Shown here piece after piece: positions 585-61,008 of a DNA stretch of 64,000 nt. The number at the start of each line of letters is the position of its first letter. The first letter of the stretch is position 1. A program made the translations under genes and the position numbers. Below the pieces are notes generated by a model. That model saw only the letters and a list, made by a program, of their open reading frames with translations, had not been told where the DNA came from and made no database searches. The DNA is from Phenylobacterium haematophilum (GTDB taxonomy: Bacteria; Pseudomonadota; Alphaproteobacteria; Caulobacterales; Caulobacteraceae), in contig NZ_JACIDK010000003.1 of assembly GCF_014196295.1 (NCBI RefSeq), positions 248,001-312,000 on the forward strand, read 5' to 3'.

Positions 585-2975
585 TTATCTGGAAGGGGCT
601 TTAGCCGCCCCCGACGGACGCAGACTTATCACCGTTTCGGTGACCGCCTCGACCGCTTGGCGCGAATAGGTCAGCGGCACATACTGCCCCTTGGCCCACA
701 ACGGAAACAGGTCGCGGAAATGCGGGCTGGCCGGGTCGCCGGACTGGCCGGGCGTGTTGATCGCCATGCTGTTGTCCCAGGCGCCGACGTCCAGCACCAT
801 CCGGAACGAGGCCCCGGCGACGACCCGGTAGTCGTTCGGCCGCCAGGTCGCGGCCAGCGGCGAAAGCGCCGTGCCGGCCATGGGCGCGGTCCCGCTGGAC
901 CAGGCTTCGCGGTCGGCGGCCGGGACCTTGGGCGTCAGCGCATGGTCGAACCGCGCCTGATGGAGCTTGCCCCAGGCCCAGGTTTTTGGATCGGGGCCGA
1001 GTTGGCCGGCGACCTCGTCATAAGCGGCCAGCAGACTTTCGGAGAGGATGGCTTCGCGCGCGGCTGCCGGATCGGCGCCGAGGCTGGCGTCCGGCGCCTC
1101 GAGCAGCGCCATGACCGCCGCGATGTCGCCATTGCCGACCGCCGCGCGGGCGGCCTGCGGCACGGCGCGGGCGACGGCCGCCTTGCCCAGGTGCTTGGTG
1201 ATCCAGACCTCGTAGAGCGCAGCGCCCGCGCTGTCGGCGCTGGTCTTCTGGTCCCAGCCGGCCAGCAGCGCAATGGCGGCGGCGAGCTTGGCGTCGCTGG
1301 TCTTCACGCCGGCCAGCAGGGCGTTCATCCGACGGGCGGTGACGTCGGTCGGATCGGTCTGCAGCGCCATGGCGTCGGCCAGGGTCAGCTTGTCGCTGGC
1401 GGCAAGCACCTCCTCGATCCGCTGCATGCGCGCGGCGTTCGACCATTCGAACCCGACCTTGCGCTCAGCGTAGGGATAGTCTTTGGGCAGGTTCAGCTGG
1501 TTGGCCGAGGCGAACCAGCCCGACGCCGGGTTGTGGGTGCTGGGCAGTTCGTCGAGCTTCAGGAAGCCGGTCCACTCGTAGCGGCCGTCGCCAGGGACCG
1601 GCGTCAGGCCGTCCCAGTTGGCGCGCCGGGGGACCTTGCCGGCCGCGACCCAGCCGATGTCGCCCTTAGTGTCTGCGAACACCTGGTTCTCGGACGGCGC
1701 CCCCCAGTCTGAAAGGGCGTCCCGGAAGCTTGGCCAGTCCTTGGCGGTCATGTAGCCCATCGAGCCGAAATAGGCCGACGTTCCCGGCTCGGCCCAGACG
1801 CTGCGGACCGCGAAGGCGCGCGACTTGGCGCCGTCGGCGTAAACCACGGGGCCGTGGCGGGTGAAGTGCAGCTCGACCTTGCGCGGGGCCTGCCCCTTGA
1901 CCTCGATGGTCTCGGCGACCGTGGTCATGTCGGCCCAGCCGTCGCCGTAGCGGTACTTCAGCGGCGCGCCGGCCTGCGTCTCGTAGACGTAGAGATCCTC
2001 CTGGTCGGCCGGGAAGATCGTCAGGCCGAAGGCGACCGTGCCGTTATGTCCGATGGAGACACCGGGCAGGGCCGGTTCGCCGGCCCCGATCACCGAGAAG
2101 CCGGGCGCTTCCATGTGCACGATGTAGCGCAGCGACGGGGCCGAATGCTCCCGGTGCGGGTCGTTGGCCAGGATCGGCCGACCGGTGGCGGTGCGGCTGC
2201 CGGCCACGGTCCAGTTGTTCGAGCCGATCGCCTCGGGCGGGATCTCAAGCATGGCGAGCTTGGCCTGCGAGCCGGTGAAGCGCACGCCGCGGGTGGCCAG
2301 TTCGTAGTCGCCCAGCACCGCCTCGGGGATGTCGCAGGGATCGAGCCCGGCCGGCAGCTTGGGCGTCCATTTCGGCTCGATGTGCCTGTAGAGCCGCGCG
2401 GCGTCGATGCCGGCGGCGCAGGCGATGCGGGCGCGGCCGACCTCGTTGGGGACGTTGCGGGTCAGGCCGTGGCTGCGAATGCGCACGACGTCGTCGGCGC
2501 TCCAGCGGTCGGGTTTGGTCCCGGCCACCTGGAATTCCTGGGGCAGCGGCCGTTGGCCGGCGGCGATCTCGTCGACGAAGGCGTTGAGGCCGGCGACGAA
2601 GGCCTCGGTGTTGTCCTTGGCCCCGGCGCCATAGGCGTTCCACTCGCGGACCATGTCGCCGCGATAGAGGAACAGGCGCGCGGCGCGGTCCTGGGCGACG
2701 TAGTCGGGGCCGAAGTCCTTGGCCAGCAGGCCGAGGCCCCGCTTGCGCCAGAGGTCGACCTGCCAGAGCCGGTCGCGGGCGACATTGTAGCCCTGCAGGA
2801 AGAAGGCGTCGCGGGTGTCCGCGGCATAGATGTGGGCGATGCCCCAGCGGTCGATGCGGATCTCCGCCGGCTGGGCCAGGCCGGCGACGCTCAGCGTCTC
2901 CTGCTTGGGCGCGGCGACCGCGGCGGTGGAGCTGAACAGGGCGGCGAGCAGGGCGGCGGACACAAGGCGTTGCAT
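585..2975 (-). CDS. Penicillin acylase family (Ntn) amidohydrolase, secreted
   Basis: 796-residue precursor of an N-terminal-nucleophile hydrolase that would cleave amides such as acyl-homoserine lactones, cyclic imides or beta-lactam side chains; the substrate is not shown. Residues 1-21 are a Sec signal peptide ending AAVAA|P. The alpha-subunit region (RWGIAHIYA, QGYNVARDRLWQ) is followed by the GSNNW motif, where Ser252 is the predicted new N-terminus of the beta chain after self-cleavage; the conserved LANDPH follows. The region before Ser252 would be the spacer plus alpha chain. It sits between fdxA and a pseudouridine synthase gene, convergent with neither. Family assignment is firm, substrate unknown; quorum-signal acylases and aculeacin-type acylases are alternatives. 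Confidence 0.9.
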   Translation of the reverse strand: MQRLVSAALLAALFSSTAAVAAPKQETLSVAGLAQPAEIRIDRWGIAHIYAADTRDAFFLQGYNVARDRLWQVDLWRKRGLGLLAKDFGPDYVAQDRAARLFLYRGDMVREWNAYGAGAKDNTEAFVAGLNAFVDEIAAGQRPLPQEFQVAGTKPDRWSADDVVRIRSHGLTRNVPNEVGRARIACAAGIDAARLYRHIEPKWTPKLPAGLDPCDIPEAVLGDYELATRGVRFTGSQAKLAMLEIPPEAIGSNNWTVAGSRTATGRPILANDPHREHSAPSLRYIVHMEAPGFSVIGAGEPALPGVSIGHNGTVAFGLTIFPADQEDLYVYETQAGAPLKYRYGDGWADMTTVAETIEVKGQAPRKVELHFTRHGPVVYADGAKSRAFAVRSVWAEPGTSAYFGSMGYMTAKDWPSFRDALSDWGAPSENQVFADTKGDIGWVAAGKVPRRANWDGLTPVPGDGRYEWTGFLKLDELPSTHNPASGWFASANQLNLPKDYPYAERKVGFEWSNAARMQRIEEVLAASDKLTLADAMALQTDPTDVTARRMNALLAGVKTSDAKLAAAIALLAGWDQKTSADSAGAALYEVWITKHLGKAAVARAVPQAARAAVGNGDIAAVMALLEAPDASLGADPAAAREAILSESLLAAYDEVAGQLGPDPKTWAWGKLHQARFDHALTPKVPAADREAWSSGTAPMAGTALSPLAATWRPNDYRVVAGASFRMVLDVGAWDNSMAINTPGQSGDPASPHFRDLFPLWAKGQYVPLTYSRQAVEAVTETVISLRPSGAAKAPSR

Positions 2976-3007
2976 AAGGCCAAGCTAGGCTGCGCGGTCG
3001 CCGGCGA

Positions 3008-3781
3008 CTAGCCCTTGGAGGCGGTGATCAGGGCGGCGCGTTCCTCGGCGCTCAGCGGCCGCCACTTGCCCTCGGGCAGATCGCCGAGCTTCAGCGGGCC
3101 GACCCGAACGCGCATCAGGTCGACGACGCGCAGTTCGACCAGCTCGGCCATCCGGCGGATCTGACGGTTGCGGCCTTCCTTGAGGACGATGTTGAGCTTC
3201 TGCTCGGTCACCTGGGTGACCTTGGCGGGGCGCAGCTTGCGGCCGTCGAGTTCAAGCCCGTGGCGCAGCAGGGCGATCTTCTGAGGCGTGATCACGCCGG
3301 TGAGGAGCACGTTGTACTCCTTGTCCATCTCCGACTCGGGCCCGATCAGGGCCTTGGCCAGCACGCCGTCCTCGGAGAGCACCAGCAGGCCGCGGGACTC
3401 GCGGTCCAGCCGGCCGAGCGGGGCCAGGTTGTTGGCGGCGGTCGGGATGGTCGCCGGCGCGTCGCCCCACAGCGCTTGGCGGGTCAGCAGCGTGACGGCC
3501 TCGACCTGATCGTCCTGCGGCAGCGACGAGACTATGCCGATCGGCTTGTGCAGCACGATCGAGAGGCTGCTGCTGAGCTTCTCCTGGGCGCTGTCGTTCA
3601 GCACCAGGGTCTGGCCCTGCAGGATCTTGCGGCCGGCGTCGTCCACCCGCTCGCCGTCGATGAACACCAGCCCCTGGGCGATCAGGCCCTCGGCCTCGCG
3701 CCGCGAGCAGACGCCGCTCTGCGCCAGCCACTTGTTGACGCGTTGGGGTTCAGGGTCGTCGTAGCGCCGGGTCCAAGCCAT
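3008..3781 (-). CDS. 23S rRNA pseudouridine synthase, RluB/RluF (RsuA) family
   Basis: 257-residue enzyme converting a uridine in rRNA to pseudouridine. An S4 RNA-binding domain (about residues 14-60, VNKWLAQSGVCSRREAEGLI) precedes the catalytic domain; the signature GRLDRESRGLL puts the catalytic aspartate at position 126. The HKPIGIVSS segment and GRNRQIRRM near the end are also family marks. The start lies 9 bases after the stop of the S4-protein gene, so the two are probably co-transcribed with the helicase. The exact target uridine (RluF-like 2604 or RluB-like 2605) cannot be decided without a tree. Confidence 0.9.
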   Translation of the reverse strand: MAWTRRYDDPEPQRVNKWLAQSGVCSRREAEGLIAQGLVFIDGERVDDAGRKILQGQTLVLNDSAQEKLSSSLSIVLHKPIGIVSSLPQDDQVEAVTLLTRQALWGDAPATIPTAANNLAPLGRLDRESRGLLVLSEDGVLAKALIGPESEMDKEYNVLLTGVITPQKIALLRHGLELDGRKLRPAKVTQVTEQKLNIVLKEGRNRQIRRMAELVELRVVDLMRVRVGPLKLGDLPEGKWRPLSAEERAALITASKG

Positions 3782-3790
3782 GGGGTCTCT

Positions 3791-4084
3791 CTAGGGCGCG
3801 GCCTGACCGGCGTCCATCGGGGCGTAGAGCGTCCGGGCCTCCTCGGCCGGTCCACGGCGTTCGCCCAGCGCGGCCACCTCGACGGCGATCAGGCGCCCGC
3901 CGAGGGCGAAGACCAGCCGGTCGCCGACCTTCAGCGGCCGGGCGCACTTGTCGATACGGGTCTCGCTTCCGCCGCGGGTAAGGCGCACCTTGCCCTCGTC
4001 GAGAAACTTGGCGGCCAGCGAGCGGGTCTTGAAGAACCGCGCGCGCCACAGCCAGACGTCCGCGCGGCAGGCGTCCTCGCTCAC
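3791..4084 (-). CDS. S4-domain RNA-binding protein (HslR-like)
   Basis: 97-residue basic protein consisting of one S4 domain (CRADVWLWRARFFKTRSLAA, then KVRLTRGG). The family (Hsp15/HslR) binds rRNA, in E. coli on stalled 50S subunits carrying nascent chain. The GTG start shares GTGA with the stop of the helicase gene (4-nt overlap), so translation is coupled. The C-terminal part (about residues 65-97) is Ala/Arg/Glu rich and less typical. Helicase plus S4 protein is a common pair in alphaproteobacteria. Confidence 0.9.
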   Translation of the reverse strand: MSEDACRADVWLWRARFFKTRSLAAKFLDEGKVRLTRGGSETRIDKCARPLKVGDRLVFALGGRLIAVEVAALGERRGPAEEARTLYAPMDAGQAAP

Positions 4085-6615
4085 GACGCCTGGCTCCGCG
4101 CCGCCTTGGGTTTGCGCCGCCGGCGCGGGCGGCGGGCGGGCGGCGGCGCTTCCTTCAGAGCGGCGAGGGCGGCGAACGGCGAGTTGACGGGCGGCGCCGC
4201 GGCGACCTGCGGTATCGGCTTCTCCCCGCGGCGGCGCCAGACCAGCGGCTCGCCGTCCTTGGGTCTGGTGGTCGGCGCGAAGCCGAGGGTGCGCATGATC
4301 TCGCGGGCGTCGGCCTCGCTCCAGCCGAGCTCCTCGCGAGCCTGGTCCGATAGGAGGCCGGCCTTGGGCGCGGCGCGCAGCAGAGCGTCGAGCCGCTCCA
4401 GGGCTTCGACCGGGACGGCGTGGCGGCCGATGGCGCGCAGGCCGAAGGCGGCGAGGACTCTCGGCTCGGGAACCGGGCCGACGAGGCGTCCGGCGGAGGG
4501 CCGGACCTCGAGCGGGACGAAGCCCTGGGCGAAGGCCAGGGCCTGCGGCCGCAGCAGCGCCGGGAGGTAGAGACTGAACGCCCCCAGCCGCACGCCCAGC
4601 GATTTCAGGGTGCGTCGCTCGACCTGGCTCAGAGCTTTGGCGTCGGCCCGGACCGGGGCGCGATCCAGCACGCCGCCGGCCTCGATCAGCCGGTAGGCGA
4701 GTCCGCGGGCCAGGCCCTTGACCTTGCCGGTGGCTACCGCGCTCTCCAGCCTGCGCAGCGGGGCCAGCCGGCGGGCGGCCTCGGCGGCGAGGAACGCTTC
4801 CAACCGACGGGCCGCGCGTTCGCGGGCCTGTGTCGGGCCAAGCTCGCCGTAGAGCCGCACGCGCGGGGTGAACGGCGTGCCGCCAGCGAAGGCGCCGGCC
4901 GCCTCGCCGCGCCAGAGCACGACGCCGTGGGGCGTGAAGGAAAAGGCCTCGTCCGGGTCGGCCGACAGTTGGCCCAGCCGCTTGGCGATCTCGGGTGAGA
5001 CGGCCGCGACGGCAGCGGCGCGCAGGGCCTTTTCCTCGATCACCGAGGCCCCCTGAGCGGGCTCGAAGGCGACGCCGCTCAGCTTGCCGACATACTGCCC
5101 TTCGACCGTCACCGCGCCGTCGGCCGCGACGCCGGCCAGCACGTCGCCGCGCACGTGCAGCGCGCGCATCAGCACGCTGGTGCGGCGGTCGACGAACCGC
5201 GCCATCAGCTTCTCGTGCAGGGTGTCGGAGAGCCGGTCTTCCAGCAGCCGGGTCTTGCCCTGCCAGCCGCCGGGATCGGCGAGCCAGTCGGGGCGGTTGG
5301 CGACATAGGCCAGGGTGCGGACGCCGGCGAGCCTGGCCGCCAGCGTGTCGATCTCGCCGTCGGTGCGGTCCAGGTGCTTATACTGACCGGCGATCCAGTC
5401 CTCCGGGACCTTGCGATTTCGGCTGGTCAACCAGCCGAAGAACTCGCGCACCAGCCGGATGTGCTCTTCGCCGGAGGTCTTGCGGAAATCGGGCGTCTGG
5501 CAGACGTCCCACAGCCGGGTCATGGCCGAGCGGTCGCGCAGCGTACGGTCGATGACCTCCGGCTCATCGGCCAGGGCGCGCAGGGTCTTCTCGTCCAGCG
5601 CCTCTGCCGACAGCTTCAGGCCCGGTTGGGCCGGCGGCGCCGAGAGCGAGCGCTGCAGGGCCGTGAGCGAGGAGAAGTCGAGGGCGGCGTTGCGCCACTC
5701 AGCGGCGGCCACGGCTTCGAAGTGGTGCTGCTCGACCGCCTCGATGAGGTCTGCGTCCATGTCCTCGCATTCGCCCGTGACGCCGAAGGTGCCGTCGCGG
5801 GTGAAGCGGCCGGCGCGGCCGGCGATCTGGCCGACCTCGGGCGGGTGCAGGAAGCGGGTGCGCTTACCGTCGAACTTTCGCAGGCCGGCGAAGGCCACAT
5901 GGTCGACGTCCATGTTCAGGCCCATGCCGATGGCGTCGGTGGCGACCAGGAAGTCGACCTCGCCGGACTGGTAGAGCGCGACCTGGGCGTTGCGGGTGCG
6001 GGGGCTCAATGACCCCATGACCACCGCCGCGCCGCCGCGCTGGCGGCGGATCAGCTCGGCGATCGCATAGACCTGGTCGGCCGAGAACGCGACGACGGCC
6101 GAGCGGCGGGGCAGGCGGGTCAGCTTCTTGGGGCCGGAATAGGTCAGGCGCGAGAACCGCTCACGGGTGACGATCTCGGCGTCGGGCAGCAGCCGCCGGA
6201 TCAGCGGGGCCATGGTTCCGGCGCCCATGAACATGGTCTCGAACCGGCCGCGGGCGTGCAGCAGGCGGTGGGTGAAGATGTGGCCGCGCTCGGGGTCGGC
6301 GCAGAGCTGGATTTCGTCGACGGCCAGGAACTCGACCTGGCGGCTCAGCGGCATCGCCTCGACGGTGCAGACGAAGTACTGCGCGCGGGCGGGGACGATC
6401 TTCTCCTCGCCGGTGATCAGGGCCACGCAGGAGGGGCCGCGCAGCTTGACGATGCGGTCGTAGATCTCCCGCGCCAGCAGACGCAGGGGCAGGCCGATCA
6501 TGCCGCTGGCATGGCCGAGCATCCGCTCGACGGCCAGGTGGGTCTTGCCGGTATTGGTCGGTCCGAGCACCGCCACCAACTTGGGCGGGCCGAAGTCCGA
6601 CAGACGCGCGCTCAT
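4081..6615 (-). CDS. SUV3-like ATP-dependent RNA helicase
   Basis: 844-residue superfamily 2 helicase of the group related to mitochondrial SUV3. Walker A is LGPTNTGKTH (residues 17-26), motif II is DEIQ at about 100-103, and the second RecA-like domain contains the family motif QIAGRAGRF. A C-terminal extension of about 400 residues includes a lysine/arginine-rich tail. In mitochondria SUV3 unwinds RNA for degradation; the bacterial role is less defined. It is the first gene of a likely operon with the S4 protein and the pseudouridine synthase, which suggests work on RNA or ribosomes. The window offers no direct evidence for its substrate. Confidence 0.92.
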   Translation of the reverse strand: MSARLSDFGPPKLVAVLGPTNTGKTHLAVERMLGHASGMIGLPLRLLAREIYDRIVKLRGPSCVALITGEEKIVPARAQYFVCTVEAMPLSRQVEFLAVDEIQLCADPERGHIFTHRLLHARGRFETMFMGAGTMAPLIRRLLPDAEIVTRERFSRLTYSGPKKLTRLPRRSAVVAFSADQVYAIAELIRRQRGGAAVVMGSLSPRTRNAQVALYQSGEVDFLVATDAIGMGLNMDVDHVAFAGLRKFDGKRTRFLHPPEVGQIAGRAGRFTRDGTFGVTGECEDMDADLIEAVEQHHFEAVAAAEWRNAALDFSSLTALQRSLSAPPAQPGLKLSAEALDEKTLRALADEPEVIDRTLRDRSAMTRLWDVCQTPDFRKTSGEEHIRLVREFFGWLTSRNRKVPEDWIAGQYKHLDRTDGEIDTLAARLAGVRTLAYVANRPDWLADPGGWQGKTRLLEDRLSDTLHEKLMARFVDRRTSVLMRALHVRGDVLAGVAADGAVTVEGQYVGKLSGVAFEPAQGASVIEEKALRAAAVAAVSPEIAKRLGQLSADPDEAFSFTPHGVVLWRGEAAGAFAGGTPFTPRVRLYGELGPTQARERAARRLEAFLAAEAARRLAPLRRLESAVATGKVKGLARGLAYRLIEAGGVLDRAPVRADAKALSQVERRTLKSLGVRLGAFSLYLPALLRPQALAFAQGFVPLEVRPSAGRLVGPVPEPRVLAAFGLRAIGRHAVPVEALERLDALLRAAPKAGLLSDQAREELGWSEADAREIMRTLGFAPTTRPKDGEPLVWRRRGEKPIPQVAAAPPVNSPFAALAALKEAPPPARRPRRRRKPKAARSQAS

Positions 6616-32279: not shown

Positions 32280-34157
32280 TCAGCCGACCCAGGGTTCGGC
32301 GAGGATCTCGGCGATGAGGTCGGGCCGCTGCAGATGGACAAGGCGGCCGGCGTCGGCGAGAGTCACGACCCGGCATCCTGGCCAGGCGTCCTGCAGCGGC
32401 GGCAGCGAGTCGGCAGGGCTGTAGAGCGGATCCTGGAGGCCGCAGACGATGGTGATGGCGCCGCCGTCCTCGAGTATGTCGACCGCCTCAGCCGGTTCGG
32501 TCCTGGCCACGGCGATGAAGCCGGCCCCGCCTTGCATGGCGCTGAGCTGGGAGGAGCGGACGTAGGCGGCGCGGACCTCGGGATCGGCCAGCGTGGCGCG
32601 GTCCACGGCGCTGGCCTGAAGCGACTTCAGGGCGAGGCGCTCGACGATGGCGGCCGAGGCGTTTCGGCTGAGATAGCGGGCGAGGCCTTCGATCAGCCAT
32701 GGGGTCGCGTAGACCAGTCCCTTGATCTGGCCGACCAGACCGCCGCGGCGGCGGTCGGCGCTGGCCGGCGGTTCAGGATTGAGGATGACCGCGCCGCGGA
32801 CCCTGTTGGCGTGGCGCGCGAGCAGCCGGGAGACCACCAGCCCGGCGTTGCGCGCCAGAACGGACGCCGTGGGCAGATTCAGCGCGTCCATGACATCGAC
32901 CAGATCCTGGGCCGACTGGACCAGGTAGTCGCCCTCGACCATGTCGGTCAGCCCAAAGCCGGGGCGATCCAAGGCGATCGGCCGCAGCCCCCTGGCCTGC
33001 AAGGCGCGCACGAAGGTTTGCGGATTGTGGCGGCCCGTGGCGGCGGTGTGCAGGATCAGCACCGGCGCGGCGCCGGGAGGGCCGTGGTCGGCGATGGCGA
33101 TGCGGCCCCGCCGCCCTTGGCGCGCGATCAGCTTCAGCGGTTCGCCGACGTCGCGGGCGAAGCCGATCTCGGTGGCGCAGACCATGGCGTTGAGCAGGCG
33201 CAGTTCGCCGACCAGCCCAGCCAGTGCGGCGGCGCTGGCTACGGCGCAACTGCCGAAGACCGTCTTCAGCTCAGCCTTGACGAGGTGCTGCGAGATCCGC
33301 AGTCGTCGGCCGACATCGACTCTCTCCAGGCCCTCGGCGAGCAGGATGGCGGTCCGGGCCTGCCTGGGCGTCAGGCCGAACAGCTCGATCAGCCAGTGAT
33401 CGACGTCGCCCTGGGGCATCGTCTGGCCGGCGTGAACGGCGACGCAGAGGGCGACGAACTCCCCCTGCCTGCGCACGCCAGCCTTGCGCATCGCCGACTT
33501 GAGCGACTTGCGCGCGGTCTCATAGGCGACGCCGGCGGTCTTTGCGGCCAGCCGCAGGTCGCCGGTGCGAACCAGGCCGCTGGTCACGCGAGCCTCGAGG
33601 CCGGTCAGGCCCAGGCGCTGAGTGAAGGCCGTGCTGCCGGCGCCGAGCCGTCCGGCCGGCGCGCAGGCGACGACTACGTGGCTGACGGCGCCGGTCTCGA
33701 TGCGGCGGCGCACCGACCCGGAGATGGGCCAGCCGCGGGCCTGGTCGGCCGGCGCGACGGCGACAGGGAAGACCCGGCCGTCGGCGTCGGCCGCCAGGCA
33801 GATCCGCGCCGCGCCCGACGGCCTCGGCGTCAAGGCGTCACCAGGTCCGGCGAGCTTCCAGGCCTGAAAACGGTCGTCCACGAGGCCGAGCGTCCCGTCG
33901 CGGCCGCAGGTCGCCGAGGCGAAGGTCTCAGGGTCTATGACGACCGGGCCGCCGAGCGCCTTGGTCGGCGCATCGCCCGGGCGGCTCTCGACCGTGCTGA
34001 GCAGGTCCGCCGGAAGATCCTGCTCGGCTGCCGGGCGTGCGGTGAGCGGGTTCAAGAATCCAGACGCCTTCGATGTGCGGCGCCCATGTCGCCAAGTCCT
34101 ACCGCCCGACCGTCGCACAACACCGATCGCCGAGCCAAGCGGCGCGATCGCCCCCAA
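32280..34157 (-). CDS. Tandem LuxR-like HTH / degenerate alpha/beta-hydrolase fusion (module copy A)
   Basis: 625 residues as written. Layout: a variable N-terminal sensor-like region (about 70-170), first HTH (about 180-240, LTGLEARVTSGL ... AYETARKSLKSAMRKAGV), second HTH (about 258-320, LTPRQARTAILLAEG ... ISQHLVKAELKTVF), then an alpha/beta-hydrolase fold (about 340-620). The elbow reads LARNAG, so Ser is replaced by Asn437; the catalytic His position in ADAGRLVH is Arg605; the acid Asp576 (GLQDP) remains. It is likely a DNA-binding protein with a non-catalytic ligand pocket. TTG start at 34157 lacks a ribosome binding site; the true start may be downstream. It is divergent from the secreted protein gene and shares its architecture with 56081-57856. 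Confidence 0.75.
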   Translation of the reverse strand: MGAIAPLGSAIGVVRRSGGRTWRHGRRTSKASGFLNPLTARPAAEQDLPADLLSTVESRPGDAPTKALGGPVVIDPETFASATCGRDGTLGLVDDRFQAWKLAGPGDALTPRPSGAARICLAADADGRVFPVAVAPADQARGWPISGSVRRRIETGAVSHVVVACAPAGRLGAGSTAFTQRLGLTGLEARVTSGLVRTGDLRLAAKTAGVAYETARKSLKSAMRKAGVRRQGEFVALCVAVHAGQTMPQGDVDHWLIELFGLTPRQARTAILLAEGLERVDVGRRLRISQHLVKAELKTVFGSCAVASAAALAGLVGELRLLNAMVCATEIGFARDVGEPLKLIARQGRRGRIAIADHGPPGAAPVLILHTAATGRHNPQTFVRALQARGLRPIALDRPGFGLTDMVEGDYLVQSAQDLVDVMDALNLPTASVLARNAGLVVSRLLARHANRVRGAVILNPEPPASADRRRGGLVGQIKGLVYATPWLIEGLARYLSRNASAAIVERLALKSLQASAVDRATLADPEVRAAYVRSSQLSAMQGGAGFIAVARTEPAEAVDILEDGGAITIVCGLQDPLYSPADSLPPLQDAWPGCRVVTLADAGRLVHLQRPDLIAEILAEPWVG

Positions 34158-34240
34158 ATGGGGAGGGGCGCCACGGAGGGTTGCGCCTAGTCGTCACGGT
34201 GCGGCTTTCGATCGGCCGCGCTTCAGGGGGGGCGACTGGC

Positions 34241-35224
34241 ATGGTTCAACTCAATCGGCGCAGAATTTCGTTCGGGCTGATCGCCTCGGGGCTGGCGCCG
34301 CCGGCCGCCGCGCGGGCGCAGAGCGTCAAGTCGCAGCAAGCCGCAGCGATGGCGGGGGTCAACAACGTCGCCGTCGGCAGCTTCACCATCGCCTTCCTGA
34401 CCGACCGGACCGACACCGCCCGCGCCGGCGGCGGGCTTATGGGCGGCGGCTTCGGGGGACGATCCACGGCCCGCAGCGCCCTGGAGGGCGTCAGCGACGC
34501 CGATTTCCAGCGGGTGACGGACGCCGCCTACGAGGACTTCCTGGGACAGCTGCGAAAGTCCGGCTACGCGCCTGGCGACCGAGCGGCGGTGGTGGAGGCG
34601 TTCGGACGCAGCAACGCCGCGCCGCTGGAGAACGGGCTGGAGCGCGACGTCATTCTGGCCAGAGACTCTCGGGCCAAGGCGAAGGTTTTTTCGCCAAGCT
34701 CGATCGGCGGCGTCTGGCTGCCGAGAGAAGTGCTTGGCCAGATCAGCGCGCCCGGCTTCGCCGGCAACCGCAGCGCCATCGGCATCAGCATGGGCGGCGC
34801 CAGCTATGCGCGTTCGAGCGGGCAGGCGGTGGTCAACGCCTTCTACATCGTCGACTTCGCCAATGCCGAGACCTATGGCGGCTGGTTCCGGAACAGCTCG
34901 GCCGTCTCGGTAAAGGCAGGCCTGGCGATCGTCCCGGAAGTGTCGAAGGTGTTCGCCTATGCGCCCAGCGGCCGCATCGCGATGGCGACGCTGTCGGAGC
35001 CCGTGGCGGTGGGCGGCGATTTCGGCACCTTCGACGACAGCACCACCGGCGGACACAAGGCCGCGGAGTTCGCGGCGAACGCCATCGGGGTGCTTGGCGG
35101 CGTCGGCACCAGCTCCACTCGCCGGTACACGATGCGGGCGGAGCCGGAACGCTGGTCGGCCGGGGCCGTCGAACTGTCCAGTTCGGCGAGCAAGGTCCTG
35201 ATCCAGGGCATGGGCGGCCGCTGA
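34241..35224 (+). CDS. Secreted protein of unknown family (module copy A)
   Basis: 327 residues starting MVQLNRRRISFGLIASGLAP, a signal peptide with an RRR run (Tat-like) ending AARA|Q. Mature part is rich in Ala, Gly and Ser with alternating beta-like stretches. It resembles the 55010-56002 product in length and in VTDAAYEDFLGQLRKSGYAP (there ITDRAYADFVERLTAAGFTV) and in the end region. I do not recognise the family. GGGGGG lies about ten bases before the ATG. Divergent from the fusion regulator, which probably controls it. Confidence 0.7.
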   Translation: MVQLNRRRISFGLIASGLAPPAAARAQSVKSQQAAAMAGVNNVAVGSFTIAFLTDRTDTARAGGGLMGGGFGGRSTARSALEGVSDADFQRVTDAAYEDFLGQLRKSGYAPGDRAAVVEAFGRSNAAPLENGLERDVILARDSRAKAKVFSPSSIGGVWLPREVLGQISAPGFAGNRSAIGISMGGASYARSSGQAVVNAFYIVDFANAETYGGWFRNSSAVSVKAGLAIVPEVSKVFAYAPSGRIAMATLSEPVAVGGDFGTFDDSTTGGHKAAEFAANAIGVLGGVGTSSTRRYTMRAEPERWSAGAVELSSSASKVLIQGMGGR

Positions 35225-53793: not shown

Positions 53794-53797
<4 letters not shown>

Positions 53798-54936
53798 GCC
53801 TCCCGGCCCCAGGCCTGGACATCGGCGACGAAGAGGTCGGGCTCCTCCATGGCGGCGAAATGGCCGCCGCGCGGCTGGTCGCTCCAGCGGACGATATTGT
53901 AAGCGCGCTCGGCCCAGCCGCGCGGCGGGGCGGTGTAGAGCGGTTCGCCCGGGAAGTTGGCGAAGGCGGTCGGGGTCTCGCAGCGCTGGCCTTCGGCGAG
54001 GGCCACGCCGCCCTCTTCGAGGAAGCCGCGATAGTACCAGGCCCCCGTCGTGAAGCTGCCGGTCATCACGTAGAGCATGATGTTGGTCAGCAGCTTGTCC
54101 TTGGGGTGGACCACGTCGAAGGGCTTTTCGCGCAGGTCCGACCAGTCGTGAAACCGCTCGGCGATCCAGGCGGCCTGGCCGACCGGGTTGCCCGCCCCCA
54201 TCCAGGCCAGCGACTGCGGCTTGGAGGCCTGGAGCCGGAAGTAGGCGCCCATCAGCTCCATCATCTGGCCCTGGCGGGTCAGCCAGGCGACCTCGGCCTC
54301 GTCCTTGGGCCCGCCGAACGGGCGCAGGGCCATCATGTTGAGGTGGATGGCGCGGACGTGGGCGCCGTGTTCGTGGCCGAGCCAGGAGGTGACCATTGCC
54401 CCCCAGTCGCCGCCCTGGGCGAGGTAGCGGTCATAGCCGAGCACCTGGGTCATCAGGGTGTTGAACAGCCGGGCGGTTGTGCGCTGGCCGATCGGGCGGA
54501 CCGGCTTGGACGAGAAGCCGAAGCCCGGCAACGACGGGATCACCAGGTCGAAGGCGTCCTTCGCGTCGCCGCCGAAGCGGCTGGGGAAGGCGAGCTTCTC
54601 GATCGAGCCCCAGAACTCATAGTGCGAGCCCGGCCAGCCGTGGGTGAGCAGAAGCGGCCGCTGGCCGCCAGCCTCGCCGACCACGTGCAGGAAATGCAGG
54701 TCGTAGTCTTCGACCCGCGCCGTGAACTGCGGGAAGCGGTTGAGGTCCGCCACGGCCGCGCGCCAGTCATAGGCTCCGGTCCAGTGGGCGCAGAGGTCCT
54801 TGAGATAGGCTCCGTCGCAGCCGTAGGCCCAGCCGTCGGGAACCTCCGGGGCGGGCGGCCAGGGATAGGCGCGGACCAGGTCGAGCACCGTCTGCACGGC
54901 CTGGTCGCTCCATGCGACCTCGAACGGTTGGACCAT
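53794..54936 (-). CDS. Epoxide hydrolase
   Basis: 380 residues. An N-terminal EHN domain (about 3-90) is followed by an alpha/beta-hydrolase. HGWPGS holds the oxyanion region; Asp177 in QGGDWGA is the nucleophile; the catalytic His is in RGGHFAAMEEP (about 362). Hydrates epoxides to diols, as the EHN group does. Contrast with the degenerate hydrolase domains nearby: this one is intact. Confidence 0.93.
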
Positions 54937-55009
54937 CTGACGCTCCCTCTCCCTTATCGTTGATCAGGAAGATGGCGCGGTTGTCGCAAGGGGCGTCAAG
55001 AGGCTGCGA

Positions 55010-56002
55010 TCAGCGCCGGGCCTTGCGCAGTTCATCGACCGCGACCTGGTTCTGAAGCGCCAAGGCTTGGAGCGCCAGCCGGGTGTAGGCCTCCGGATCG
55101 ACTTCGAACCGGCCGATGGCTTGGGCCTGGCTGACATAGCCGAGCCGGCTTTCCCAGGTATCCACCGACTGTCCGCCTGTGGAGGTGGAACGGGCCGGGC
55201 CGCGGTCGCCCTGGACCAGGCCGAACTCGCCCGGCGCTTCCAGAGAGCCGTCGACCTTGTACTCGAAGAATCCGCCGTGCTGGCCGACGCGAACGCGCCA
55301 GGGTTCCATCGAGAAGCCTCCGATCACAGGACCTCCGTGCACCATCGGCCGGTAGGAGGCCTGGGCGCCGCGGGCGAGGATGGCCATCGGACCGCCTCCG
55401 GACGCCTGAACATAGGCGTAGTTCACGGTGAAGCGTGGGGCGACCATGGTGGCGTCGAGGTCGCGGGTCATGGCCCGCACAGCGCCAAGGTTGACGGGCA
55501 TGGCGCTCTCCGGCCACGAGCCGAGCCCGGTCGGATGAACCAGGGCGTAGGACTGGCGGGCGCCGAGGTTGCTCATGGTCTGAATTTCGATTTGACCCGC
55601 GCCCGCCTTGAGCTGGCCTGCTCCGGGCGTGGCTCGCCAGGCGTCGGGCGTGATCACTGTAAAGCCGGCGGCGGTGAGGCGCTCGACGAAGTCGGCATAG
55701 GCACGGTCCGTGATGGCCTGGATCAGCTCGGGCTCGGCCCCGCTCAGCACCGTCTCGGCGGTGGCGCGGGTGTCGGTGGTGCTGGCCGTCGCACGGGCGC
55801 TGACCATGAACGAGACACGGTAAGACGGCACGAAGATGCTGGCGCGCACCTTGTCGCCGGCCAGGACGTTGCGGGTGAATTTTTGCGGCGGGGCCGAGGG
55901 CAGCTCGATCGGCGCGTCGAGGGCGGCAGGCCGCTCAAGGCCGCGCGCCTCGCCCGTGGTCAAGGCCAACGCCGCCGTCGCACACGCTAACAGTCTGAAC
56001 AT
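55010..56002 (-). CDS. Secreted protein of unknown family (module copy B)
   Basis: 330 residues starting MFRLLACATAALALTTGEARG, a Sec signal. It resembles the 34241-35224 product in length, in ITDRAYADFVERLTAAGF and in a C-terminal helix (FEVDPEAYTRLALQALALQ). The middle has long beta-like stretches (SYRVSFMVSARATASTTDT, FTVNYAYVQASGGG). Family not recognised. GGGGGAG lies nine bases before the start. It lies 78 bases downstream of the fusion regulator on the same strand. Confidence 0.7.
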   Translation of the reverse strand: MFRLLACATAALALTTGEARGLERPAALDAPIELPSAPPQKFTRNVLAGDKVRASIFVPSYRVSFMVSARATASTTDTRATAETVLSGAEPELIQAITDRAYADFVERLTAAGFTVITPDAWRATPGAGQLKAGAGQIEIQTMSNLGARQSYALVHPTGLGSWPESAMPVNLGAVRAMTRDLDATMVAPRFTVNYAYVQASGGGPMAILARGAQASYRPMVHGGPVIGGFSMEPWRVRVGQHGGFFEYKVDGSLEAPGEFGLVQGDRGPARSTSTGGQSVDTWESRLGYVSQAQAIGRFEVDPEAYTRLALQALALQNQVAVDELRKARR

Positions 56003-56080
56003 CTCAAGGCTCCCCCCATAGGTCGGAACCGAGGATTTCACGCGTACGGCGCGGCTCGCATCCCCGCTTTGGATACCTCC

Positions 56081-57856
56081 TCAGAGCAGGGCGGCGATCT
56101 CGTGGGCGTGGGTGTCCTGCAGGAAGCGCCCGGCCTCGGCGAAGCGGACGTGGCGCAGGCCGGGCAGGGCGCGCCAGGGATCGTCCTGAGCCGCGCCCCA
56201 CAGCGGATCGGCGCCGCCGGTCACGACCGTCCAGGGCGCGCCGCCGGCGAGAAGCGGAGGGCGCCAGACCGGATAGGCGGTCTGTTCGGCGGCCAGCCCT
56301 GCGGCTGTGCGCGCGCCGCAGGTCAGAAGTTCGGCCACCGCCGCATGGCGCCAGACCGGATCCTCGATGAGGGCCGCGTCGGCGGGATGGGCGCCGAACA
56401 GGCGCCGGATCAGCGTCTCGGTCAGCCGCACGCCGGCCTTGCGGCGCAACAAGGCGTAGGTCGAGATGATCGCGCCTGGATGTTGCGCGCCGAGGCGGAT
56501 CCATCCGTCGATGAGCTGCAGACCGGGAAGGGGCGCTTGGGGCGGGCGCGGTGAAATCAGCACTCCGGCCTGCACGCGGCCAGGATGGAGCGCGGCGAAG
56601 GCGAGCGCCGCCGGCGCGCCGCCGTCCCTGGCCAGCAGCCGCACGCGCTCGATGCCCAGTGCGTCGAGCAGCGCCGCCATGTCCGCGGCCGCGGCGACGA
56701 ACGGATCGCCGGCGGCGGGGTCGGTAAGGCCGAAACCTGGCCGGTCGACGCCCAGAGGCCGATAGCCGTGGGCCTGGAGCGCCGTGCACAGGCGGGTCGC
56801 CACGCGGCGCGATCCCATGCCGCCATGCACGAACAGCACCGGTTCGCCGTCCGGGGAGCCGAAGTCGGCGGCGGCGATCTGGCGCCTGGCCAGGTGAAAG
56901 ATCCGGGTGGCGCCGAGCAACCCCTCGCGATCGGAAGGGGCTGTCTCGTCGGCCTCGGCGAACGCCACCAGGGCGCGGGCTTCAGCCAGGAAGCGCGGCA
57001 GCTCGGCCAAGCGCGTCTGGCCGGCCTTGGCGAGGACGCCCCGCGCCTGGTCGCGGACCGTATGGGCGCTGAGGCCCAGCGCGGCGGCGGCCTGCGGCAG
57101 CGACGCGCCTTCGGCCAGAAGGTGGCTGAGCCGCATCTGTGCGGGCGTGGCGCGCAGGGCTTGCTTCAACCCGACGTCGCGCGCCCAGTCGCAGACGCTT
57201 TCGTCGGCCAGCAGGCGCGTCAGCCGCGCGAACAACGCCCCGCGTCGATCGGTTCCGGTGCTCTTCAGCAACCGCCGAACGCGCTTGCGGATCGCGGCCT
57301 CCGAAAGCGCCAGCCGCTGGGCGATGGCGGCGAGGTCGTCGGCCTGCATCAGTTGGTCCAGAAGGTCGCGCTCGGACCGGGTCAGGCGGTAGACGCGCGC
57401 GGCGAAGTCAGCGAAGCCGGGCATACGGCTCGGCGCGAACACCATGGCCACAAGGGCGCTGTCGGACGACGCCTTGGCGAGCGCGCCAACGACGGGCCAC
57501 GCGGCCGCATGACGTCGCGCCGCCAGCGCCGCCAACACGGCCTGGCCGCGGCGGTCCTGGAGGACGACGTAGGTGCGTCCGGACCGGGCGGCGCGAGCGG
57601 CCGCGGGCGAAATCGCCGGCGCGTGTGGGCCGAAGATGTTAGTCCAGCCGCCGCCCGCCCAGTCGAGCTTTCCGCCGTGGAGAACGGCTGCGGCGAAGCC
57701 CCAATCCGGGGCGGCCGGCCGGCAGGCGAAGGGTTCGTTCTCCGCGTCGCGCAAGCCGTCCAACTGCGGCGGCCGGTCGCTGGCGACGTCGCGCTCCAGC
57801 TCCGCCCAGAGCGCGAAGAACCGATCGGCCTCGAACTCGCGCGCGGGCGGCTCCAA
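56081..57856 (-). CDS. Tandem LuxR-like HTH / degenerate alpha/beta-hydrolase fusion (module copy B)
   Basis: 591 residues. Layout as in copy A: sensor-like N-terminus (about 1-150), HTH one (about 157-215, LTRSERDLLDQLM ... LSEAAIRKRVRRLLKSTG), HTH two (about 235-290, TPAQMRLSHLLAEG ... LSAHTVRDQARGVLAKAG), hydrolase fold (about 325-591). Oxyanion HGGMGSR and DRPGFGLTD are shared with copy A. Nucleophile elbow is LLARDGG (Asp411 for Ser), acid Asp550 (GGADPLWG) is kept, and the His position in EAGRFLQ is Arg577. A TTG start is used, with GGAGAG before it; it begins one base after the tetR stop, so it is probably co-transcribed with tetR and the secreted protein gene. Confidence 0.75.
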   Translation of the reverse strand: MEPPAREFEADRFFALWAELERDVASDRPPQLDGLRDAENEPFACRPAAPDWGFAAAVLHGGKLDWAGGGWTNIFGPHAPAISPAAARAARSGRTYVVLQDRRGQAVLAALAARRHAAAWPVVGALAKASSDSALVAMVFAPSRMPGFADFAARVYRLTRSERDLLDQLMQADDLAAIAQRLALSEAAIRKRVRRLLKSTGTDRRGALFARLTRLLADESVCDWARDVGLKQALRATPAQMRLSHLLAEGASLPQAAAALGLSAHTVRDQARGVLAKAGQTRLAELPRFLAEARALVAFAEADETAPSDREGLLGATRIFHLARRQIAAADFGSPDGEPVLFVHGGMGSRRVATRLCTALQAHGYRPLGVDRPGFGLTDPAAGDPFVAAAADMAALLDALGIERVRLLARDGGAPAALAFAALHPGRVQAGVLISPRPPQAPLPGLQLIDGWIRLGAQHPGAIISTYALLRRKAGVRLTETLIRRLFGAHPADAALIEDPVWRHAAVAELLTCGARTAAGLAAEQTAYPVWRPPLLAGGAPWTVVTGGADPLWGAAQDDPWRALPGLRHVRFAEAGRFLQDTHAHEIAALL

Positions 57857-57857
57857 G

Positions 57858-58460
57858 TCAGCTCTCCGGGCGCAGGCCTTTGGCCAGGGCGTGGCCGAGC
57901 TGGCGGTTGAGGATGCGTGCCATGCCCTTGGGCAGCTTGCCGGCTAGTTCGAGAGTCACCGCGCCGTGGGTGGCGGCCCAGAACATGCGGCCGATCTCCT
58001 CGGGGTCGCCTTCCATGACGCCGGCCTCGACTAGGCCCTTGATGTAGGCCGACTGCATGGCGTTGGCGCGGGCGGCGGCGGCGACGAGCTCGGGGTAGTC
58101 CTTCTCGTGCGGCTGGTTGAGGTCGAACATCAGCTTGTAGGTCTGCGGATGTTCGAAGGCGAAGTTCAGATAGGCCTCGCCGACCGCCGAGCTCTTGGCC
58201 TTGGCGCTGCCCTGGGTGTTCGAGAGCGCGCTCTCCAGGGCCTCGGCGAAGCGGTTGAAGCCGTTGGTGCGCACCGCCGCCAGGATGTCTTCCTTGTCGG
58301 TGAAGTAGCGGTAGGGGGTCATAGGGCTGACACCCAGCTCCGCCGCCAGCTGGCGCATGGTCACCGCGTCCGGTCCCTTGTCGGCGAACAGCTTTTCAGC
58401 CGCGTCGCACAGGCGTTCGCGGAAGTCGGCGACATCGGACTCGGAGAGGACGCGGGGCAT
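57858..58460 (-). CDS. TetR-family regulator
   Basis: 200 residues. HTH at about 15-60 (AAEKLFADKGPDAVTMRQL ... VSPMTPYRYFTDKEDIL). The remaining helices form a ligand domain. Divergent from the DUF2855/carotenoid-oxygenase genes with an operator-like dyad in between, and followed by the fusion regulator after one base. Likely repressor of the divergent pair and perhaps of its own operon. Inducer may be an isoprenoid or aromatic compound, which is inference. Confidence 0.9.
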   Translation of the reverse strand: MPRVLSESDVADFRERLCDAAEKLFADKGPDAVTMRQLAAELGVSPMTPYRYFTDKEDILAAVRTNGFNRFAEALESALSNTQGSAKAKSSAVGEAYLNFAFEHPQTYKLMFDLNQPHEKDYPELVAAAARANAMQSAYIKGLVEAGVMEGDPEEIGRMFWAATHGAVTLELAGKLPKGMARILNRQLGHALAKGLRPES

Positions 58461-58503
58461 CGGTAAACTCGACCCAAAGAAAGTGCTTGTCCTGGGTTAG
58501 CTC

Positions 58504-58527
58504 TTACGTAATAAATTTACAACGTAA
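58504..58527. promoter_or_regulatory. Operator-like dyad between tetR and DUF2855
   Basis: TTACGT at 58504-58509 and ACGTAA at 58522-58527 are exact inverted copies with an AT-rich 12-base centre. It sits in the divergent 82-bp gap, where one TetR dimer could cover both promoters. Confidence 0.6.
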
Positions 58528-58542
58528 AAAGGCGAGGAAGCG

Positions 58543-59592
58543 ATGTCGGACTGGGATGTGCTCGTCGCGAAGGACGATCTGCGCAAAATCGAAGTGCGGG
58601 AGGCCGCGCCGCGAGCGCCCCTGGCCGACGGCGAGGTCCGGCTGGAGGTCGAGCGCTTTTCGCTGACCGCCAACAACATCACCTACGGCCTGATCGGCGA
58701 GGCCTTCGGCTACTGGAAGTTCTTCCCGGCCGGCGAAGGGCTGGGCCGGATCCCGGTCTGGGGCTTTGCGAAGGTGGTGGAGTCCAATGCCGCCGACGCG
58801 CCGGTCGGCCTGCGGGTGTTCGGCTATCTGCCGATGTCGAGCAGTTTCGTCGCGAGGCTGGCGCGCAAGGGCGGCGGCTATGTCGACACCTCGGCGCACC
58901 GGGCCGAGCTGCCGCCGACCTACAACGCCTATGCCGAAGCGCCGCAGGACGCGATGGACGATCACCGGGCGCTGCTGCGGCCGCTGTTCATGACCTCGTG
59001 GCTGCTGGACGACTTCCTGTCGGAAGACGGCGCGTTGAAGACCCTGGTGCTGTCGAGCGCCTCGAGCAAGACGGCGATGGGCCTGGCCTGGTTCGCGCGG
59101 CGGCGCGGGATGCCGGTGGCGGGGCTGACCTCGCCGGGCAATGCGCAGACGCTGGCGGGGCTGGGTCTCTACGACCGCATCGTTCCGTATGACGAGGCGG
59201 GATCGCTGAAGGTCGAGGGGCCGGCGGTCTATGTCGATTTCGCCGGCGACGCGCGGGTCAATGAGACAGTCCACGCGGCCCTGGGCGGCGACCTGGCGCG
59301 CAGCATCATCGTCGGCGGGACGCACTGGAGCGGCGATCGCGCGCCGCGCGCTCTGGCCGGGCCGCAGCCGGTGCTGTTCTTCGCCCCCGACCAGATCCGC
59401 AAGCGGGCGGCCGAGTGGCCCCAGCAGGAGCTGGATGCGCGGTTCACGGCGGCGCTGGGCGAGTTCGTGGCCGACGCCGGCTGGCTGAAGCTGAAGCAAT
59501 CGACGGGTCCCGAGGGGCTTCTGGCCGCCTATCGCGAGGTGCTGGAAGGCCGCGCGCGGCCCGACGAAGGACACATCATTCGACCGGTCTGA
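58543..59592 (+). CDS. DUF2855 (MDR-like oxidoreductase) protein
   Basis: 349 residues. Overall pattern of the medium-chain dehydrogenase superfamily: an N-terminal GroES-like part (FSLTANNITYGLIGEAFGYW) and a Rossmann-like half (LVLSSASSKTAMGLAWFARR). DUF2855 function is unknown. Encoded directly before the carotenoid oxygenase, 24 bases apart, so likely an enzyme of the same pathway, perhaps reducing an aldehyde product. GGCGAGGAAG precedes the ATG. Confidence 0.88.
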   Translation: MSDWDVLVAKDDLRKIEVREAAPRAPLADGEVRLEVERFSLTANNITYGLIGEAFGYWKFFPAGEGLGRIPVWGFAKVVESNAADAPVGLRVFGYLPMSSSFVARLARKGGGYVDTSAHRAELPPTYNAYAEAPQDAMDDHRALLRPLFMTSWLLDDFLSEDGALKTLVLSSASSKTAMGLAWFARRRGMPVAGLTSPGNAQTLAGLGLYDRIVPYDEAGSLKVEGPAVYVDFAGDARVNETVHAALGGDLARSIIVGGTHWSGDRAPRALAGPQPVLFFAPDQIRKRAAEWPQQELDARFTAALGEFVADAGWLKLKQSTGPEGLLAAYREVLEGRARPDEGHIIRPV

Positions 59593-59616
59593 AGCCGGCC
59601 TAAGAGGAGGAAGACC

Positions 59617-61008
59617 ATGGACGGCGATGTTCGCATCAACCCCTACCTGTCCGGTAACTTCGCGCCGGTCCGCAGCGAGGACGACTACGAGCTGACGGTG
59701 ACCGGGGAGATCCCCAAGGGCCTGCGCGGCACCCTCTATCGCACCGGCCCCAATCCGCAGTTCGAGCCGCGCGGCGAGTACCACTGGTTCTCAGGCGACG
59801 GCATGATCCACGCCTTCCATGTCGAGGACGGCAAGGTCAGCTACCGCAACCGCTATGTGCGCACGCCGAAATGGGAGGCCGAGAACGCGGCCGGCCGGGC
59901 GCTGTGGGGCGCGTTCGGCAATCCAGCGACGACCGATCCCAGCGTGTTGGGTAAGGACAGCGGCGGGGTGGCCAACACCAACATCGTCTTCCATGCCGGC
60001 AAGCTGCTGGCGCTGGAGGAGGGACATTTGCCCTTCGAGATGCAGCCGCGGACGCTGGAGTCCAAGGGCCCGGTCGAACAGTACAGGGGGCGCGTCACCG
60101 CCCACCCGAAGATCGATCCGAAGACCGGCGAGATGGTCTGGTTCGGCTATGGGATCGGACCGATGCCGTTCGGCACGGGGATCAGCTACGGCGTCACCGA
60201 CGCGACCGGCAAGGTCGTGCGGCGCGACGACTTCGAGGCGCCCTATTCGTCTATGATCCACGACTTCCTGGTCACCGACAATTACGTGCTGTTCCCGGTG
60301 CTGCCGCTGACCGGCAGCCTGCAGCGGGCGATGAGCGGTCTGCCGGCCTTCGCCTGGGAGCCCGACAAGGGCAGCCACGTGGCGGTGATGCGCCGCGACG
60401 CCGACGTCTCGACCATCCGCTGGTTCAACGCCCCGCCGTCGTACGTCTTCCACCCGATGAACGCCTGGGAACAGGACGGCAAGATCATCGCCGACGTGTT
60501 CCGCTATGACAGCGCGCCGCTTTTCCCGAACGCCGACGGATCGCCGGGCGCCAAGGCTGCGGCCCGGCTGGTGCGCTGGACCTTCGACCTGAACGGCGAC
60601 TCGGACGCCATCAGGGAAGAGGCGATCGACGACCTGGACGGCGAGTTCCCGCGCTTCGACGAACGTCACGCGGGCCTGGCCTATCGTCACGGCTGGTATG
60701 CAGCCGACCCGTCGGGCGCCAAGACCATCAAGCAGACGGCGATCGCGCACCTGGACCTGAAGACCGGCAAGCGCCAGGTCTATGAGCTGAGCGGCGGCGA
60801 CATGACGTCGGAGCCGGTGTTCACGCCGCGCTCGGACAGCGCCGACGAGGGCGACGGCTGGGTGACGGCGGTGGTCTGGCGGGCGGCCGAGAACCGCAGC
60901 GACTTCCTGGTCTTCGACGCCCAGGACATCGCCAAGGGCCCGATCGGAACCGCGCACCTGCCGCGCCGCGTGCCGTTCGGGTTCCACGGGAACTGGGTGG
61001 CCGAGTAG
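59617..61008 (+). CDS. Carotenoid cleavage oxygenase (RPE65 family)
   Basis: 463 residues, seven-bladed propeller enzyme. The four iron-binding histidines are His163 (TAHPKID), His215 (MIHDFLVT), His279 (VFHPMNAW) and His457 (GFHGNW). It cleaves a C=C bond of carotenoids, apocarotenoids or stilbene-like compounds. The neighbour DUF2855 and divergent TetR suggest an inducible catabolic unit. AAGAGGAGG sits before the ATG. Confidence 0.92.
   Translation: MDGDVRINPYLSGNFAPVRSEDDYELTVTGEIPKGLRGTLYRTGPNPQFEPRGEYHWFSGDGMIHAFHVEDGKVSYRNRYVRTPKWEAENAAGRALWGAFGNPATTDPSVLGKDSGGVANTNIVFHAGKLLALEEGHLPFEMQPRTLESKGPVEQYRGRVTAHPKIDPKTGEMVWFGYGIGPMPFGTGISYGVTDATGKVVRRDDFEAPYSSMIHDFLVTDNYVLFPVLPLTGSLQRAMSGLPAFAWEPDKGSHVAVMRRDADVSTIRWFNAPPSYVFHPMNAWEQDGKIIADVFRYDSAPLFPNADGSPGAKAAARLVRWTFDLNGDSDAIREEAIDDLDGEFPRFDERHAGLAYRHGWYAADPSGAKTIKQTAIAHLDLKTGKRQVYELSGGDMTSEPVFTPRSDSADEGDGWVTAVVWRAAENRSDFLVFDAQDIAKGPIGTAHLPRRVPFGFHGNWVAE

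Follow-up and report, generated by a model that had tools for sequence, protein, structure and literature searches.

What does a bacterial gene do that joins two LuxR-like helix-turn-helix (HTH) motifs to an alpha/beta-hydrolase domain with a degenerate catalytic center? The question is raised by a reverse-strand gene in the window, by which we mean the whole 64,000-nucleotide stretch of DNA analyzed here, part of the 4.43-Mb genome of an environmental bacterium. The open reading frame proposed in the earlier note, 32280–34157 (−), is real: in its longest form it begins with the TTG at 34157 and encodes 625 amino acids, inside a 637–amino acid open frame. Residue numbers below follow the 625-residue version. 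The true start is probably the TTG at 34055 (gene at 32280–34055, −; 591-residue product), since codon changes relative to L005, a 93%-identical relative used for codon comparison, look coding-like only from the block at residue 39, and since a codon-usage gene caller also chooses 34055. Codons −11 to 13 carry no changes, codons 14 to 38 carry four amino acid changes and no silent ones, and from residue 39 onward third-position changes prevail in most blocks. The 591-residue product would have the same length as a second copy encoded in the window, PAR. Gene calls and signal-peptide calls throughout this work are home-made heuristics. Because the likely start is at 34055, the DNA of interest upstream of the gene is a divergent intergenic region at about 34056–34240, a candidate operator region, rather than 34158–34240, which the earlier note had singled out for a DNA binding assay. 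Within it, the 75 bases at 34119–34193 do not differ from L005. A repeat of CGATCGCC, 21 bp apart at 34124–34152, was considered as an operator and set aside as chance-sized by our own rough estimate.

The architecture described in the earlier note was borne out by family profiles, by a Pfam match and by the letters at the triad positions. Abhydrolase_1 matched residues 365 to 612 over the Pfam cut-off (E = 2.2e-11), within a hydrolase domain that spans residues 345 to 623 (32289–33125, −). Pfam did not detect an HTH in the window protein sequence alone, and the LuxR-type assignment is made by family profile, not by the single sequence. Profile A5 (28 rows), which covers HTH1 (residues 176 to 245; 33423–33632, −), matched GerE (1fse) at E = 8e-6; k-cTRP5, listed at the top for this profile, has no stretch passing on its own. 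Profile A6 (28 rows), covering HTH2 (residues 254 to 330; 33168–33398, −), matched EL222, VpsT, and NarL at E values from 5e-12, the value for EL222, to 1e-7. The two HTHs align with each other at 98% probability, and region 170–330 thus contains both, as the note had predicted. When the 30 rows of family profile A3 (28 double-HTH and 2 single-HTH) were scanned with Pfam, GerE was found in 14 and Abhydrolase_1 in all 30.

The N-terminal domain (residues 75 to 176; 33630–33935, −) gave no match to the Protein Data Bank (PDB) with its own profile, A7 (best E = 0.21). A PAS-like reading of this domain was rejected given that value and a Pfam scan without PAS. Pfam scans of the window protein and the 30 A3 rows found no PAS/LOV, receiver, or sigma-54 interaction domain, the last two being features of PrsR-type regulators, and no autoinducer-binding domain (E up to 1 for the window protein and up to 0.01 for the 30 rows).

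Structure prediction and structural search agreed with this layout in part. An AlphaFold model built from a three-row alignment (mean pLDDT 54, pTM 0.39) places helices at both HTHs, where 10-residue blocks reach pLDDT 85 and some fall below 50, and recovers, with low confidence, the expected order of hydrolase elements; a second prediction, also from a three-row alignment, had a mean pLDDT of 45. Foldseek matched hydrolases at E of about 1e-9, with low TM-scores of 0.24 to 0.29 on the query. Since AlphaFold confidence was low, we relied on the profiles rather than on the models.

The triad letters reported earlier were confirmed by alignment: Asn437, in LARNAG, at the nucleophile position (codon 32847–32849, −), Asp576, the acid, kept (32430–32432, −), and Arg605 at the position of the catalytic His (32343–32345, −). 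Triads were counted over four columns (nucleophile, +2 glycine, acid, and His positions), and a triad was called complete when Ser or Asp as nucleophile was accompanied by the +2 glycine, the acid, and His; L132b, L123b, and L027b were left out. None of the 57 double-HTH rows has a complete triad, compared with 24 of 25 stand-alone relatives, 15 of which form one haloalkane dehalogenase–like tree group and are therefore not independent. The stand-alone relatives carry Ser or Asp at the position of Asn437, the +2 glycine, and His at the position of Arg605 in 25/25 cases each, and Asp at the position of Asp576 in 24/25. The double-HTH rows show D in 26, G in 23, S in 4, N in 2, H in 1, and A in 1 at the nucleophile position; D in 35 at the acid position; and R in 31, H in 4, and V, L, I, M, or F in 22 at the His position. 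Asn437 is thus not fixed, being found only in the window protein and its 93%-identical orthologue (2/57), and Arg is the commonest letter at position 605 (31/57). The acid is present in 35/35 rows with Arg or His at the His position and absent from 22/22 with a hydrophobic residue there. Since these 22 rows come from a single region of the tree, the loss of the acid may have been a single event.

Beyond the double-HTH rows, triad loss is graded across the wider group of sequences compared, and in the surveyed double-HTH rows it is complete. Among single-HTH fusions to the hydrolase domain, a complete triad occurs in 0/11 of those we call class 2 and in 2/11 of the others (L124 with Ser and L126 with Asp). 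In single-HTH fusions from the wider phylum (L209 to L218), Ser is kept in 9/10, and L212 and L213 show Ser-Asp-His. The earlier expectation that homologues would lack this triad therefore holds for the double-HTH form and fails for the distant single-HTH proteins L124, L212, and L213. These three are possible active enzyme-regulators, and the presence of Ser-Asp-His in some distant single-HTH fusions suggests enzyme-like sensors turned receptors.

These distributions bear on whether some chemistry is left. Haloalkane dehalogenases and epoxide hydrolases use Asp as the nucleophile, and Asp occupies this position in almost half of the double-HTH rows (the 26 counted above). Two double-HTH proteins, L015 and L039, have the letters S, D, and H, in an STF elbow in place of SxG and without the +2 glycine, and the full triad of L124, L212, and L213 is found in distant fusions. 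An enzyme-regulator that modifies or slowly hydrolyzes its ligand with another set of residues would account for these cases. However, the window protein carries Asn and Arg at two key positions, and the 26 Asp rows all lack His at the His position, and we regard residual chemistry as unlikely.

Although catalytic residues are lost, the fold is kept: His370, Arg398, Gly400, Gly402, Asp418, Asp519, Gly546, and Gly604 are invariant in 28/28 double-HTH rows, which, with 0/57 complete triads, argues for a fold maintained without catalysis. A dead domain of this kind could serve as a platform for dimerization or protein-protein contacts, for instance by recruiting an anti-activator or a partner in the membrane; the protein would then regulate DNA constitutively or through the docked partner. 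An interaction role is described for another inactive alpha/beta-hydrolase domain, Arb2, in a recent classification (PMC11878206). Two features look as if the pocket were unimportant: free variation at the nucleophile position outside the Asp groups (G, S, N, H, A), and absence of the acid wherever the His position is hydrophobic (22/57). In contrast, His370 and the R-x-G-[FY]-G turn are nearly invariant, and Asp occupies the nucleophile position in 4/4 rows of the PAR clade and 22/22 of the QRPGFG clade; both suggest a constrained pocket. We consider the platform possible, though doubtful, and prefer a pocket that senses a small ligand.

The low detectability of the window HTHs, which lie below the Pfam threshold, could also be taken as decay of a gene fusion that has no function. 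A His at position 611 (motif S/T-H-P) is found in 27/28 double-HTH rows, the exception being the window protein, which has Arg, and this loss points the same way; by eye, this His is missing from most stand-alone controls. However, L005 keeps the frame open, its changes falling mainly at third positions through most of the coding sequence, and 27 of the other 29 A3 rows are double-HTH relatives of the same layout at about 27 to 39% identity, which makes decay very improbable.

The double-HTH family is expanded in the genus; among named relatives, the nearest one found, Phenylobacterium sp. Root1290, has a protein 93% identical to the window protein. Matches to the window protein occur in 128/149 genomes (its own and those of relatives), many only through the hydrolase domains of other proteins. 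Profile A3 matches at E = 1e-80 or better in 45/90 genomes of the genus, and the double-HTH form, read from the list of A3 matches, is present in 31/90, including one genome (G013) in which the gene is split over contigs. In the same taxonomic family outside the genus, G760 has three full-length double-HTH copies. Further full-length copies occur in G122, G146, and G099, which belong to other families of the order, and in two other families of the class (G839 and G374, the latter a genome with 10% contamination). Since three candidates per genome were scored in the class and phylum scans and 15 in the genus scan, these counts are lower bounds. A tree of the hydrolase domain without the catalytic columns, built by a quick method and with long branches flagged, unites its 56 double-HTH rows in a single clade (SH-aLRT 99). 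At L098, two double-HTH regulators lie in tandem on one strand (1772–5329), and in L082, L085, and L087 to L090 a group of regulators lies near GST-like genes, as judged by eye from the protein starts.

PAR (56081–57856, −), the second double-HTH regulator of the window, has Asp at the nucleophile position and Arg at the His position. Downstream of it, on the same strand, come EXP2, a predicted exported protein (55010–56002, −), and a predicted epoxide hydrolase (EHN plus Abhydrolase_1); a TetR gene precedes it. The region 53797–61005 contains this same-strand run (−), TetR–PAR–EXP2–predicted epoxide hydrolase. Past the TetR gene, on the + strand, lie genes for a DUF2855 protein and an RPE65-type carotenoid oxygenase. 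An EXP2 homologue adjoins PAR in 4/4 PAR loci (W2, L108, L109, and L110), in two arrangements. That PAR shares a gene run with a predicted epoxide hydrolase would be in keeping with an epoxide or a related ligand. HaloTag is a haloalkane dehalogenase whose His has been replaced, and the Asp-without-His state of double-HTH members resembles, by analogy, this engineered state. One could therefore imagine that the Asp-bearing members are natural covalent one-component sensors, which would capture an electrophilic ligand, keep the switched state and control exported or exosortase-sorted proteins. The wider group would then represent an enzyme turning into a receptor, with Ser-Asp-His or Ser-without-His states in distant single-HTH fusions and the Asp-without-His state in part of the double-HTH family, and the first window copy, with Asn, would be a noncovalent relative. 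We think it quite improbable that this picture is correct.

The window regulator is divergent to EXP1, a predicted exported protein (34241–35224, +) that has no Pfam or NCBIfam match and whose start we read as twin-arginine–like. EXP1 and EXP2 have a short region in common (BLAST E = 3e-5; hhalign 64.8%); their homology is likely but not firm, and EXP1 joins the EXP family weakly. A genome search with the EXP profile, A4, yielded 11 strong places, 9 of them directly beside a double-HTH regulator, 1 about 3 kb from one, and 1 without. Eight of the 11 are not evidence of association, because A4 was built from them and the loci had been chosen around regulators. Of the three new places, G071 (an EXP1 orthologue) and G069 adjoin a double-HTH regulator and G123 does not. 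Among 18 weak EXP homologues examined, 15 have no HTH-hydrolase regulator adjacent, and 3 (L179, L184, and L192) adjoin a single-HTH fusion, which in L179 and L184 lies just upstream of EXP. At L177, L178, L181, L182, L187, L188, L189, and L194, an EXP-family gene stands beside a small exported gene and there is no regulator; judging from this arrangement, loss of the regulator is possible.

Exported neighbors are not confined to the EXP family. It is a new observation that double-HTH regulator genes adjoin genes for exported proteins. Neighbors were counted at 37 of 42 loci, chosen as the most similar to the window protein and not drawn at random; L093, L111, and L112 (no regulator gene call) and L116 and L117 (one HTH) were dropped. 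At 11/37 loci, an immediate neighbor ends in a PEPxxWA-CTERM tail, and all 11 tails score over the NCBI cut-off. By chance, 0.76 would be expected, a value calculated from per-genome PEP-CTERM counts and rounded genome sizes with an assumed 950 genes per Mb (the counts had a ceiling of 83 scored candidates, the value used for G040, for which another scan gave 103). The corresponding probability is about 9e-11 if loci are independent, which they are not fully. The tail occurs in 11/73 immediate neighbors, 2/69 second neighbors, and 2/222 genes farther away (Fisher P = 6e-6 for immediate versus far genes, the loci being related). No PEP-CTERM neighbor is found at 26/37 loci, those of both window regulators included. 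A crude signal-peptide rule marks 31/73 immediate neighbors compared to 46/222 far genes (P = 4e-4), and at 25/37 loci a neighbor is marked by this rule or by a PEP-CTERM tail.

The association extends to whole genomes. In the genus sample, in which genomes are related, PEPxxWA-CTERM proteins occur in 27/31 double-HTH genomes and 16/59 others; 4 of the 31 have none. Among genomes of at least 4.0 Mb, the figures are 25/26 and 10/20. An exosortase gene is present in 33/90 genomes, including the one that carries the window. The gene neighborhood suggests that the dead enzyme acts as a sensor and that the cell surface is under its control.

A further exported neighbor marks a subclade of 16 rows in which QRPGFG replaces DRPGFG. 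A small exported protein of about 150 residues (SEP) is encoded directly downstream of the regulator, on the same strand, at 15/15 loci; the sixteenth row, L054, lies at a contig start and was left out of this count. A SEP profile built from 4 loci picks up the remaining 11, each with E = 6e-45 or lower. SEP is absent beside three other QRPGFG members that were checked (L113, L114, and L115). The small exported protein of L179 and L184 was dropped as a SEP relative, as the SEP profile does not find it. Several SEP-subclade loci face an RcnB-like exported protein (PF11776, checked in L107 only). TGAACC-N5-TGAACC-N15-GGTTCA lies upstream of the RcnB-like gene in L095, L099, L100, L101, L105, and L107, and the core motif occurs once or twice in five of six genomes searched. 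This motif was rejected as the operator of the regulator: the motif of L100 is found at the RcnB-like gene, at a distance of over 1 kb from the regulator. Within 400 bp upstream in 15 subclade rows, among which L204 is a second copy of L103, there are 23 TGAACC sites compared to a mean of 1.8 after shuffling, and 5/15 rows have none.

At the level of sequence, three things are clear: the domain architecture, the absence of a complete triad throughout the double-HTH family, and the association with exported-protein genes. The first two are the parts of the earlier dead-pocket sensor proposal that stand; DNA binding and ligand sensing, like the direction of regulation and the identity of ligand and target, are what we infer. 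Our preferred reading, to which we assign a probability of about 0.57, is a one-component regulator that senses a small ligand through a dead hydrolase pocket and controls neighboring exported-protein genes through tandem HTHs. The protein would be a cytoplasmic transcription regulator that binds DNA through its two tandem LuxR-type HTHs, and its C-terminal alpha/beta-hydrolase domain, having lost catalysis, would serve as the sensor. A small molecule, probably hydrophobic or ester-like, would bind the pocket and alter DNA binding. The divergent EXP1 gene is the most likely target, and the regulator would probably control its own gene too. In this genus, many family members may switch exported and exosortase-sorted surface proteins locally. 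If this is right, a sizeable bacterial family has turned a dead enzyme fold into the sensor of a one-component transcription factor, and states from full triad to none are still extant in different lineages.

A literature search that mostly excluded subscription journals found no description of the family or of its tandem HTHs, loss of the triad, or connection with exported or PEP-CTERM proteins. The architecture is not described in the accessible parts of PMC9601222, PMC2447327, PMC11878206, PMC1569441, PMC3466318, and PMC5882156, and the section on additional domains in the recent alpha/beta-hydrolase classification names no HTH fusion (PMC11878206). We compare the family, which by sequence is best described as a LuxR-type one-component regulator whose putative sensor domain is a pseudo-hydrolase, with the systems closest to its parts. 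LuxR/NarL-type (GerE) regulators have the same kind of HTH, EL222 being the best match of HTH2, but in the double-HTH protein a single chain carries two in tandem, ahead of the putative sensor. The single-HTH fusions (class 2; L121 to L127 and L132; L209 to L218) also have a LuxR-type HTH followed by a hydrolase domain; in these, the profile match begins at HTH2, leaving one HTH, and L124, L212, and L213 keep Ser-Asp-His. BioH-like esterases, arylesterases, haloalkane dehalogenases, and epoxide hydrolases have the fold and core motifs in common with the family, whereas the 57 double-HTH rows lack the complete triad of active enzymes.

D14/KAI2 and RsbQ keep Ser-His-Asp and act through protein partners. 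They use an alpha/beta-hydrolase as a receptor, a likeness that applies only if the window protein does sense a ligand, and in contrast to them the window protein is fused to DNA binding domains and has Asn437/Asp576/Arg605 in place of the triad. The similarity to D14/KAI2 drawn in the earlier note is at most an analogy; neither protein is named among the PDB matches listed (60 of 284). PrsK/PrsR, as described in PMC1569441, places PEP-CTERM genes under sigma-54 control through a two-component enhancer-binding protein. Regulation of exosortase-cargo genes would be common to that system and ours, if our reading is correct, but the double-HTH family would achieve it with LuxR-type HTHs and a hydrolase fold. 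The original PEP-CTERM/exosortase authors wrote that further regulatory proteins were still to be found (PMC1569441), and the double-HTH proteins would be candidate regulators for such PEP-CTERM/exosortase cargo.
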